A DNA stretch of 46,720 nucleotides from Candidatus Poribacteria bacterium (GTDB taxonomy: Bacteria; Poribacteria; WGA-4E; WGA-3G). Of this stretch, positions 137-46,720 are shown in pieces. The stretch spans positions 1 to 46,720 of the forward strand of contig JAAXHO010000228.1 in assembly GCA_012270795.1 (NCBI GenBank). The letters run 5' to 3'. Within the stretch, counting starts at the first letter, position 1; each line of letters opens with the position of its first letter. Both the position numbers and the translations under genes were made by a program. The notes under the pieces were generated by a model. The model saw only the letters and a program-made list of their open reading frames with translations, was not told the origin of the DNA and searched no databases.

Positions 137-506
137 CGATAGCCGACTACTGAAAGCCATTGGATATATATTGGAAATCCCAATAAACAGACGCCCAAAA
201 ATCTACAAAACGCATTAAAAATCACTTATAATATATACAAAATAAGCACACAACAAGAACGCTATGCAAAACCAAAATCAACACAAAAAACACCAACAAA
301 AAAACCGTACCGAAATCCGACAATAATTTTACCAAAAAAACACTACAAAAACTCCCATGAAGCTTTATGAAAACTGGACGCATAACGAATTAACAAAACC
401 GTACCGTACGGTACGGTTTTTAAAGTAGAAAATTCTTATGAAATCAAAATAAATACACAAAAAAATTTGCAGTTATTCTTCACACAAACAAGAACTTTAC
501 ACACCC
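137..506 (-). mobile_element. Left-end element, internally deleted copy
   Basis: This stretch is the reverse complement, with a few mismatches, of the right end of the window. Bases 137 to about 489 pair with about 46346-46720. After that the left copy jumps directly to a 20 bp inner end (487-506) that matches 46094-46113 inverted. About 250 bp present in the right copy, the body of a small ORF, is therefore missing here. The start codon of that ORF survives, but the fifth codon is TAA. The inner end carries the ACTTTACACACCC terminus shared with the elements at 13316-13565 and 17599-17859. No transposase is present. The outer limit is unknown because the right copy runs off the window. Confidence 0.8.
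395..420. promoter_or_regulatory. Perfect 26 bp palindrome, operator-like (left copy)
   Basis: A perfect palindrome whose 20 bp core is ACCGTACCGTACGGTACGGT. It lies about 18 bp before the start codon of the small ORF of this element, and the same palindrome is kept in the right-end copy. The repeated GTACGGTAC units look like a binding site for a dimeric or multimeric protein. A terminator role is less likely because there is no loop. The protein that would bind it is not identifiable. Confidence 0.5.
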
Positions 507-10117: not shown

Positions 10118-10914
10118 TTAGAAACCCCTTCTACGATTTATGAGATAGGTTGTAGACTTTAGTAATCCCCAAGTTGTTGTTACTTTTCCGGTTGCTTCCA
10201 CAGCGGCGTAATCTGCTAATCCGATAGACATGACATCGTTAATTTGATTTTGAGATAGTGCTTGTGTAAAGAAACCGACTTCGTCAAAGAGACCAGTTGC
10301 TGCAACGGGTCCTGGTCGTGCTCCAATCCAAATGGGTGATTCACTGGTATCAAGCGTTCCGCCACTTGGACTTTCACCTTCTAATTTTCCATCAATAAAC
10401 ATCTGTACATTTTGTCCATCATAGACTTTAGCGATGTGATGCCACTTATTGTCAGCAACGATTGTTTTACCTTCAATCCGTCCTTCAACACCTTTGACGT
10501 GCCACATAAACACGGGAAAGTCATTTTGGTGAATCCAGATATCGAGATGGCGTACATTTTTTGGTTCTGGCCAGACATCTCCATTCCACCAGACAACATA
10601 TTGCCATGAAGCTTCTTGCAACTTGACCCATGCGACGAATGTGTAAGGATCGGCATTGAAGACATCGTTGTGAGGATGCGGACATAACTATCACCCTGTC
10701 CTGGAAAGTCCAATGCTCCGCCGAATTTACCGTTATTGACCCATGTCAAAGAACCGTTGATATCGCCATCGTGCCCACTGACAATGTCTTTAACAACATT
10801 TCCGCCATTTTCTTCAAATAACCATGCACTTGCTAATCCAAGTTTGACTGCATGTGCAGATGAGGTTGCAATGCCGATAATTATTATCATAGTTAATATA
10901 GCTGTTTTCATCAT
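10118..10914 (-). pseudogene. LamG-domain secreted protein, frameshifted
   Basis: The first frame (from 10914) encodes a signal peptide (MMKTAILTMIIIIGIATSSAHA) and the start of a LamG/concanavalin-like domain as far as GDSYVRI. It then changes to the frame that continues EASWQYVVWWNGDVWPEP to DEVGFFTQALSQNQINDVMS and stops at 10118. Against the intact neighbour at 10911-11684, one C is missing in the codons for IPHND (near 10675), a run of Cs where a deletion or sequencing error is easy. Its start overlaps the stop of that neighbour (ATGA), with AAAGGAGG inside the upstream gene, so the pair is a coupled tandem duplicate. A full product would need the missing base. Confidence 0.85.
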
Positions 10915-11684
10915 ATACCTCCTTTTAATTCAGCCCATGTTGTAGTTGATTTTTTGATTGCTTCCACAGTGGCGTAATCTGCTAATCCGATAGACATGAC
11001 ATCGTTAATTTCATTCTTTGTAAGTGCATTTGTAAAGAACCCGACTTCGTCAAAGAGACCAGTTGCGGCGATATTGTTTGGATTCGCGCCGATCCAGATG
11101 GGTGATTCATTGATGTCCAACGTTCCCTCACTGGGCATTTCAGTATCCATTATTCCATCAATGAACATTTTGACACTATTCCCATCATAGACTTTTGCGA
11201 TATGATGCCATCTATCATCTGTAATAATGGTTTTTCCATCAATTTGTCCACTATTTTTGCCAGCGGTCCACATGAAAACTGGAAATCCATCGGCGTGTAT
11301 CCAGATATCTATATGACGAGTTTCTTTGGATTCGGGCCACACATCCCCGTTTCTCCAGATGATATATTGCCATGATTTAGATTTTAACTTGACCCATGCG
11401 ACGAATGTGTATGGGGCAGCGTTGAATACATCATTGTGAGGGATACGTAGGTAGCTGTCAGGATTGCCTAAGTATCTCAAACATCTTCCAAATTTTCCGT
11501 AAGTAAACCAGCTTAGTTTTCCTATTATTTCCCCATCATTTTTACCGACGACATCTTTGGCTACTGTTCCGTTTCTTTCTTCAAAGAGCCATGCGCTGAC
11601 TAATTTGAGTTTTCTGGCGTGTGCGGCAATAACAGTGCAGTGGATGAGTATTGTTAGGCTCAATAATATCGTTATTTTTTTCAT
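10911..11684 (-). CDS. Secreted LamG/concanavalin-like jelly-roll protein
   Basis: The frame opens at a TTG at 11699, but the ATG at 11684 is preferred because the paralogue downstream starts at the same place with a similar leader (AGTAGGTAT versus AGGAGGTAT). The protein is 257 residues with a signal peptide (MKKITILLSLTILIHCTVIA then AHA). A single LamG domain follows, with YLRIPHNDVFNAAPYTFVAW, RWHHIAKVYDGNSVKMFIDG and GLFDEVGFFTNALTKNEIND, the hallmark strands of this fold. It probably binds glycans or matrix outside the cytoplasm. It sits directly after the enolase-superfamily gene, whose stop overlaps the upstream TTG, so the three genes form one unit. Confidence 0.88.
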   Translation of the reverse strand: MKKITILLSLTILIHCTVIAAHARKLKLVSAWLFEERNGTVAKDVVGKNDGEIIGKLSWFTYGKFGRCLRYLGNPDSYLRIPHNDVFNAAPYTFVAWVKLKSKSWQYIIWRNGDVWPESKETRHIDIWIHADGFPVFMWTAGKNSGQIDGKTIITDDRWHHIAKVYDGNSVKMFIDGIMDTEMPSEGTLDINESPIWIGANPNNIAATGLFDEVGFFTNALTKNEINDVMSIGLADYATVEAIKKSTTTWAELKGGI

Positions 11685-13315: not shown

Positions 13316-13565
13316 GGGTGTGTAAAGTTTTTGTAGAAACATTCATATGACTTTTGTCCACGATCTTTTTTCTCGTATGTCTATAGTCTTTTCACTTGTC
13401 TGAACCAGGATTTACAGGATTTACAGATTTTCAGGATTTACCTCAACAGGTTTTATTCCCAAAGTTGACATCAATCCGCATCAAAAAGCCTTGATAAGGT
13501 AATCCTTGTAATCTGTAAATCCTGTAAATCCTGGTTCAGACAAGTAACCAAAACTTTACACACCC
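13316..13565. mobile_element. MITE-like element with GGGTGTGTAAAG ends, copy A
   Basis: The 250 bp element starts GGGTGTGTAAAGTTTT and ends AAAACTTTACACACCC, perfect 16 bp inverted termini. Inside is a GTCTGAACCAGG/CCTGGTTCAGAC inverted module. It is almost identical to the reverse complement of 17599-17859, differing by about two substitutions and a 10 bp repeat unit. The flanking bases GTTTCGGAT and GTTCCGGAT may be an imperfect 9 bp target duplication. It encodes no protein. Confidence 0.85.
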
Positions 13566-17598: not shown

Positions 17599-17859
17599 GG
17601 GGTGTGTAAAGTTTTGGTTACTTGTCTGAACCAGGATTTACAGGATTTACAGATTACAAGGATTACCTTATCAAGGCTTTTTGATGCGGATTGATGTCAA
17701 CTTTGGGAATAAAACCTGTTGAGGTAAATCCTGAAAATCTGTAAATCCTGTAAATCCTGTAAATCCTGGTTCAGACAAGTGAAAAGACTATAGACATACG
17801 AGAAAAAAGATCGCGAACAAAAGTCATATGAATGTTTCTACAAAAACTTTACACACCCC
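17599..17859. mobile_element. MITE-like element with GGGTGTGTAAAG ends, copy B
   Basis: Starts GGGGTGTGTAAAGTTTT and ends AAAACTTTACACACCCC, flanked on both sides by TTATAG (17593-17598 and 17860-17865), a likely 6 bp target duplication. The interior is the reverse complement of copy A at 13316, plus one extra 10 bp unit of the TTACAGGATT type. It has no ORF of its own. The two copies lie inverted about 4 kb apart. Confidence 0.85.
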
Positions 17860-46085: not shown

Positions 46086-46112
46086 GGGTTATAGGGTGTG
46101 TAAAGTTCTTGT

Positions 46113-46397
46113 TCAATTTCGTTTTTTTGGTAGTGTAGACATCATTTTGCATGCAATTTTCGTTAGCTCAGATTCTCCAAAACATACCACGTGGTATGAA
46201 ATAACATACCGTGGTATGTTTTGAAAATTGGCTTTCAATCCAGTCTTAGTAGGGTCTGAAAGGTTTTTTTCAAAAACATTAATTTTTTCTGAGTATTTTA
46301 GTATGTCTGTTTTTTTATTTGGTTTCGTTGCTTTATGTTTACTCCTTTTTGTGTGAGGAATAACTGCAAATTTTTTGTGTATTTTTTTAGATTTCAT
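46113..46397 (-). CDS. Possible small basic protein of the right-end element
   Basis: 94 codons. The first 30 residues are very basic (MKSKKIHKKFAVIPHTKRSK, HKATKPNKK), which would suit nucleic-acid binding. The rest shows no family. The C-terminal third overlaps the palindromes at 46183-46218, which is odd for a conserved coding region, and no ribosome site is visible. The left copy of the element keeps the ATG but has a stop at codon 5 and lacks the body. It may be a decayed or non-translated frame. Confidence 0.3.
   Translation of the reverse strand: MKSKKIHKKFAVIPHTKRSKHKATKPNKKTDILKYSEKINVFEKNLSDPTKTGLKANFQNIPRYVISYHVVCFGESELTKIACKMMSTLPKKRN
46179..46222. repeat. Cluster of CATACC/GGTATG palindromes
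   Basis: CATACCACGTGGTATG (46183-46198) is a perfect 16 bp palindrome. AACATACC-GT-GGTATGTT (46203-46220) follows at once, and the outer arms AAAACATACCAC and GTGGTATGTTTT also pair. It looks like a multi-site protein-binding region or a foldable RNA within the element. Confidence 0.55.
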
Positions 46398-46414
46398 AAG
46401 AATTTTCTACTTTT

Positions 46415-46461
46415 AAAACCGTACCGTACGGTACGGTTTTTTCGGTTTACGGTACGGTTTT
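46415..46461. promoter_or_regulatory. Perfect 26 bp palindrome plus extra half site (right copy)
   Basis: The palindrome at 46415-46440 is the same as the one at 395-420. A further half site, GGTTTACGGTACGGTTTT (46444-46461), is present only in this copy. It lies 18 bp before the ATG of the small ORF, a position suited to a repressor or activator. Confidence 0.5.
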
Positions 46462-46720
46462 GTTAATTCGTTATGCGTCCAGTTTTCATAAAGCTTCATG
46501 GGAGTTTTTGTAGTGTTTTTTTGGTAAAATTATTGTCGGATTTCGGGACGGTTTTTTTGTTGGTGTTTTTTGTTCTGTTTTTGGTTTTGCATAGCGTTCT
46601 TGTTGTGTGCTTATTTTTGTATATATTATAAGTGATTTTTAGTGCATTTTGTAGTTTTTTGTGTGTCTGTTTATTGGGATTTCCAATATATATCCAATGG
46701 GTTTCAGCAGTCGGCTATCG

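Follow-up and report, generated by a model that had tools for sequence, protein, structure and literature searches.

The window, meaning the whole 46,720-nucleotide stretch analyzed here, is an entire contig (C148) of a 5.18-Mb assembly of a Candidatus Poribacteria bacterium and carries, toward each end, an exact copy of a perfect 26-bp palindrome, AAAACCGTACCGTACGGTACGGTTTT (Table 1). Each palindrome lies within a copy of one interspersed element, and both element copies are truncated by the contig ends; the left copy probably extends to the contig start. The palindrome, first described in an earlier note made from the sequence alone, is real: its 20-bp core was found twice in the window and in none of 100 dinucleotide shuffles when up to three mismatches were allowed.

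Table 1. Positions of the palindromes, half-sites and accompanying features of the two element copies in the window.
Feature	Position	Strand	Basis or remark
Left element copy, matching part	137..488	+	DNA alignment with right and other copies
TATAAT, possible -10 box of leader, left copy	227..232	+	Sequence; absent from the list of the consensus promoter scan
Upstream half-site CCGTACC (HS1), left copy	305..311	+	Sequence; own-word repeats upstream in relatives
Part of conserved leader block, left copy	369..383	+	Reads ...LYENW; NPYxDW in relatives
26-bp palindrome, left copy	395..420	+	Half-sites CCGTACC (399-405) and GGTACGG (410-416); TACC-4 bp-GGTA
Putative gene stump ATG...TAA (MKSK), left copy	438..452	+	Sequence; comparison with intact genes
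94-aa ORF: putative gene stump (about 12 residues), then out of context through module 2	46113..46397	-	
Right element copy, cut by contig end	46130..46720	-	DNA alignment
Second leader module, CATACC/GGTATG word	46183..46218	-	TACC-4-GGTA and TACC-2-GGTA, 20 bp apart
Conserved leader block, module 2	46240..46254	-	Reads PYxDW (translation by eye)
26-bp palindrome, right copy	46415..46440	-	Sequence
Second upstream half-site, right copy, 21 bp from palindrome half-site	46451..46457	-	Ancestral; missing from left copy
Part of conserved leader block, module 1, right copy	46473..46487	-	Sequence

A search of the genome for the palindrome core with up to two mismatches identified 16 places, comprising nine exact matches, four with one mismatch and three with two, so that the earlier description of the sequence as kept exactly in the element copies applies to only nine of them. 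The same note had proposed counting the genome-wide occurrences and asking whether all lie in the element; all 16 fall within its aligned stretches, where the palindrome is internal. Two of the three sites with two mismatches are still palindromic, the centre having changed from GTAC to ATAT. The mean column identity within this genome is 0.973 for the palindrome and 0.919 for the rest of the element, and 13.8% of 500 element windows of 26 nt are conserved at least as well as the palindrome; its conservation within the genome is high, yet unexceptional. Three half-sites are present in 13 of the 15 copies that span the region (the copy at C127:50961, which has Ns there, was excluded from the count), and the two exceptions, the copy on C158 and the left one of the window, have a 21-bp loss between two direct half-sites. 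The half-site that had been regarded as an addition to the right copy is therefore the usual state, and it is the left copy that has been shortened. At least 40 aligned stretches of 60 nt or more were found in the genome, some of which are two pieces of one copy. Contigs C253, C236, C111, C283, C186, C185, C238, C240 and C295 begin or end in the element near the palindrome, and the window displays the same contig-edge pattern, with the element at both ends (1-490 and 46130-46720); since the assembly is broken at this repeat, copies are probably undercounted.

The small basic ORFs of the window are best read as stumps of a gene that is intact in other genomes. The left ORF ends after MKSK, and the 94-aa ORF of the right copy resembles the gene family only in its first 12 residues (seven identical, E 0.036 in a two-sequence comparison); the palindrome had been thought to be preserved over coding sequence, and this is not the case. 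Some short copies contain tandem leader modules with different words, as in the window at 46113-46397 and in L078, L079 and L096, the last of which carries GTTACC followed by CGTACC.

In relatives within Candidatus Poribacteria, a matching leader that ends in a Shine-Dalgarno sequence and ATG precedes intact genes encoding proteins of 150-280 aa. The window leader aligns with the leaders of the intact genes L088 (71%, E 4.4e-6) and L097 (75%, E 6e-5), and the link between the window and this family is also apparent from the same order of parts and the shared protein start MKxxxxHKxFAV. The query protein matches 26 of 59 relatives (E<=0.001) and the family profile 34 of 58 genomes of the family (E<=1e-10); all 38 loci from named genomes carry Poribacteria titles. 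In the genome of the window no intact gene of the family was found, and the only copy detected has four in-frame stops. A more distant form of 259-267 aa, starting around LKRKDLKFRL, occurs in other genomes of the family (L121, L122 and L123) without a comparable leader, as judged by eye. In many relatives the conserved leader block reads (I/L)NPYxDW with third-base changes, as if it encoded a short upstream peptide; a peptide motif was rejected because its start, end and length are inconsistent, and a stem-loop at the block because the pairing, examined by eye, is missing from several leaders.

The encoded protein is predicted to be distantly related to the small terminases (TerS) of the phage DUF2280 family. 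All 17 members tested match PF10045 (DUF2280) in the N-terminal helix-turn-helix (HTH) at E<=0.1, with a best value of 3.7e-6; the matches are weak but consistent, the displayed member scoring 20.0 bits, below the Pfam cut-off of 24. In addition, phrog_546 matches 14 of 22 family proteins (best 2e-7), and the C-terminal domains align in hhalign with 95.7% probability and an E value of 8.7e-9 over 61 columns when a profile of 22 family proteins is compared with one of seven phage DUF2280 proteins. A single-chain model of the full-size form predicts helices at residues 5-16 and 21-31 followed by a long helix at 55-144 (mean pLDDT 81.8), and the model of a 155-aa form lacks the helix 55-144 (mean pLDDT 83.5). 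Fold searches gave no convincing match; one row was a Bacillus phage protein, 2ao9 (Z 4.3, rmsd 2.5, 56 residues), placed among unrelated rows. The best E value in a PDB sequence search was 0.27, and NCBIfam contained nothing useful. No relative was confirmed among 55 pattern stretches in the viral_contigs set; the phage records contained one weak match to the family (E 0.06) and none to its distant member L121. The PF10045 profile found no match in the genome of the window. Searched for exact matches, genome_contigs yielded none to the element and viral_contigs none to the palindrome, both being sets that may omit records near this genome. All 10 neighbour proteins scanned at eight loci of intact genes are of host type and none is phage-like; because no large terminase was found among them, the protein is called TerS-like here and is not classed as a terminase. 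Two intact genes adjoin defence genes, which for L134 encode a restriction enzyme of type ISP together with an AAA_35 ATPase and for L138 a type III CRISPR Cas10; ORFs next to L142 and L131 open similarly to those at the defence-gene loci.

The leaders of the intact genes contain arrays of short half-sites of which the window palindrome is one example. Array tests began with 30 of 32 leaders, one with 10 nt of upstream sequence and one with a 13-aa ORF having been dropped. In 26 of the 30, the best inverted repeat among the 75 nt that precede the ATG reached a printed z of at least 2.0 against dinucleotide shuffles, the remainder being L119, L128, L164 and the dead L117. As for the conserved distance to the ORF start that the earlier note had suggested checking, the inverted repeat ends 13-37 nt before the ATG in leaders with a clear one. 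The words are lineage-specific and were read partly by eye: CGTACC, GTTACC, CATACC, GATACC, TGTACC and CTTACC, as well as GTTACA, TGTACA, GTTATA, GATACA and GTTTTC. The word of each leader forms an inverted pair and usually occurs in further copies. Upstream of the inverted repeat, the own words of 27 of the 30 leaders were found 11 times exactly (10 leaders), compared with 1.6 expected from the words of other families, and 27 times with one mismatch allowed (23 leaders), compared with 13.0 expected. The short copies L156, L157, L159 and L160 have similar backbones and different 8-nt words; each word is found again further upstream in the copy that carries it, with one mismatch in L160 and without any in the other three.

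The main rival explanation, which we judge unlikely, is that the inverted repeat is a hairpin in the mRNA leader, acting as a terminator or translation attenuator, with the direct copies pairing alternatively with its 3' arm. The inverted repeats do lie just 5' of the Shine-Dalgarno sequence and ATG, their arms change together between species, and their loops vary from 4 to more than 20 nt; moreover, A- and T-runs flank the stem, and four terminator-like sites, three of which lie in the palindrome, are listed for 800 bp, compared with 0.5 in shuffles. However, L134 and L163 have two or three inverted (3'-type) half-sites, no match to the Rfam covariance models was obtained in the window at the gathering score, and a hairpin predicts neither a correlation with an HTH residue nor the helical spacing of the copies. 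The direct copies near the inverted repeat are separated by 10-12, 19-22, 31 or 51-52 bp, and among the 21 leaders with three or more sites, 24 of 25 such gaps deviate by no more than 1.5 bp from a multiple of 10.5, compared with 58.5% in control windows; none of 20,000 resamples was equally phased, and these numbers overstate independence because the leaders share ancestry. The control comprises the 165 of 3,223 windows that have at least three sites, and includes other 11-12-bp repeats and perhaps family copies. When one gap was counted per word-gap pair, 21 of 22 were phased, and 20 of 20 after removal of the outer-arm word CGTTTT. Distances to the far upstream half-site show no clear phase (10 of 17, from a hand-copied list). 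Helical phasing would be expected of a protein bound to double-stranded DNA and not of RNA pairing.

Site and protein also appear to change together, at a putative DNA-reading residue, in these related sponge bacteria. The protein column most associated with the presence of both TACC and GGTA within the final 80 nt is residue 21 of the HTH, at the start of its second helix: both are present in 13 of 15 leaders whose protein has Arg-21 and in one of 18 with other residues (Fisher 2.3e-6 for 33 leaders, uncorrected for ancestry). In this count, leaders without a readable array were scored as lacking the word, and L167 repeats L102. The exceptions are two Arg leaders without the word and one non-Arg leader with TACC and GGTA; L112 encodes an Arg-21 protein but has a GTTTTC word, and L200 encodes an Arg-21 protein and has no readable array. 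The rule for residue 21 was fixed before later copies were obtained from a wider search, and all seven of these with a readable array follow it by eye: L172 and L209 have Arg and ACC, and L185, L197, L198, L204 and L206 have neither. The other six of the 13 later leaders were not counted, L194, L200 and L202 being unreadable, L210 having a mixed word and L167 and L176 being repeats. On a tree built without the HTH, supported branches provide four independent pairs, which change in the same direction 3.6 times on average and in the opposite direction 0.0 times; the ancestry-aware pair test gives p 0.125, which is not significant, four pairs being too few.

The phage relatives offer a parallel. 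Among 18 phage DUF2280 records, a gene labelled large terminase or "terminase" follows in nine (TRS1, Klebsiella 2 LV-2017, PSA04, ST13-OXA48phi12.5, ZF40, phiAH14a, Haboob and MR13, and PP270 with one gene between) and a "DNA-packaging protein" in one more, the remaining eight having no terminase-type label in view; the TRS1 protein matches DUF2280 with an E value of 3e-35. A published table places DUF2280 before the terminase genes in an Acinetobacter prophage, in the same order as in phages (PMC7760358). In the last 45 nt of the phage DUF2280 leaders, the best direct repeat has a period of 10-11 in 12 of 15 non-redundant leaders (control 11.2%), and strong repeats (score of at least 6) occur in five of 15, compared with 0.78% of control windows (binomial 8e-8), these five being the same that suggested the idea and the leaders being related. 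Eight non-redundant phage leaders fetched afterwards included seven with a period of 10-11, none of which reached a score of 6. The Poribacteria and phage proteins match at the profile level, weakly in the N-terminal HTH and more clearly in the C-terminal helical domain, and the phage genes tend toward 10-11-bp direct repeats just 5' of the ATG; the Poribacteria gene differs in having no large terminase or phage genes among the scanned neighbours, in a predicted helix, about 90 residues long, that separates the two domains in its full-size form, and in arrays with inverted as well as direct half-sites. In phage lambda, cosB adjoins nu1. At the pac site of SPP1, direct repeats extend across the promoters and the start of the small terminase gene and have been proposed as TerS sites, and the isolated DNA-binding domain of SF6 TerS is reported to bind pac DNA weakly and non-specifically (PMC4737164). 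On that account the repeats adjoin the start of the TerS or TerS-like gene in both systems; binding by the SF6 domain is non-specific, whereas the word and the HTH residue correlate in Poribacteria, and no packaging context surrounds the Poribacteria genes.

Other repeats of the window were also considered. Short interspersed repeats with inverted GGGTGTGTAAAG ends are located at 13316-13565 and 17600-17858, one such end also occurring at 46094-46105, and the 16-bp end of this type is found at 243 genomic places with up to one mismatch, compared with one for the reversed pattern. These repeats resemble the palindrome element in being short, numerous and without a gene, and differ in that the element carries the leader of a former gene. 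Of MITE-type features, GGGTGTGTAAAG-type ends were seen near some element copies only: CTTTACACACCC, with up to one mismatch, follows within 100 nt downstream in six of the 14 copies that extend into the right part, and among 34 intact genes elsewhere a left end is present in one, a right end in four and both in none. An IS256-type mobiliser was considered for these ends and rejected, no PF00872 transposase having been found in either of the two genomes searched. A tandem duplication with a 766-bp shift and 74-87% identity lies at 10168-11441.

There is a low probability, in our estimate, that the palindrome and half-sites are mobility signals, recognized by whichever protein drives the spread of the element, be it a transposase or the TerS-like protein. 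The sites do persist in many gene-less copies in the genome of the window, and a complete genome carries gene copies that are 97-99% identical at different places, which indicates recent duplication or movement of the gene there. Against this, the sites lie inside the element, and in many genomes they stand before an intact gene that is single and not repeated; no transposase of PF00872, the one family tried, was found in the two genomes searched; and words that differ among the similar backbones of L156, L157, L159 and L160 would not be favoured by shared machinery. It is likewise improbable that the palindrome has no present function in this genome and that the copies share it simply as young relics, a view that fits the window copies, their unexceptional conservation and the failure to find an intact gene, but does not account for what is seen across species, where own words recur, copies are phased and a residue correlates with the word.

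The computations show the architecture of the array, the recurrence of own words, their helical spacing, the correlation between residue and word and a distant homology of the protein. They point instead to the reading that we consider reasonably probable, namely, that the palindrome is the inverted-pair core of an array in double-stranded DNA that is recognized by the TerS-like HTH protein encoded downstream in intact copies, with a probably autoregulatory role. Binding, oligomeric state and repression by this protein we infer as follows: it would most likely form an oligomer along one helical face of the array and, when bound, would repress its own expression, autoregulation being the simplest role because the array follows the presumed promoter and precedes the start codon. 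Such a protein seems a likelier binder than the host or transposase protein proposed earlier. The suggestion that the site was selected on its own gains support from the co-varying, helically phased half-sites of relatives, and none from conservation within the genome. Autoregulated HTH repressors with operator arrays have inverted half-sites beside their own gene, in helical phase. The Poribacteria half-sites share these properties; however, their array adjoins the ribosome-binding site, 200-400 bp downstream of the presumed promoter, which is unusual for a repressor, and the TerS-like protein family is not a known repressor. The weak HTH homology, the unconvincing fold searches, the unclear phase of the far half-site, the loss of significance of the protein-site correlation once ancestry is considered, the Arg-21 exceptions L112 and L200 and the failure to find an intact binder in the genome of the window also count against this reading. 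Given that the gene is destroyed in the window and that the only full-length relative found in this genome is dead, the window sites are probably orphans in dispersed gene-less copies.

More tentatively, a small terminase gene of phage type may have escaped from phages and now be spreading, as a solitary gene, among sponge bacteria, in which the word at all nearby half-sites and one HTH residue changed together (Arg21 with ACC/GGT; Leu, Ile, Asn, Pro or His with ACA, ATA or ACG); the matched pairs would then give a readable TerS recognition code. TerS sites beside terS are of a known kind, and the solitary, dispersed variant with its protein-site correlation looks new: the system was not found in the literature on Poribacteria mobile elements, terminases and palindromes, on DUF2280 and on small-terminase sites, a search with most subscription papers outside its scope. 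A review describes the DNA-binding mechanisms of TerS as remaining unclear and controversial (PMC9611059). If the word and the HTH residue do switch together, the question of TerS binding would become testable with small proteins and short DNAs, and the Poribacteria family would represent a packaging-type protein living apart from phages.
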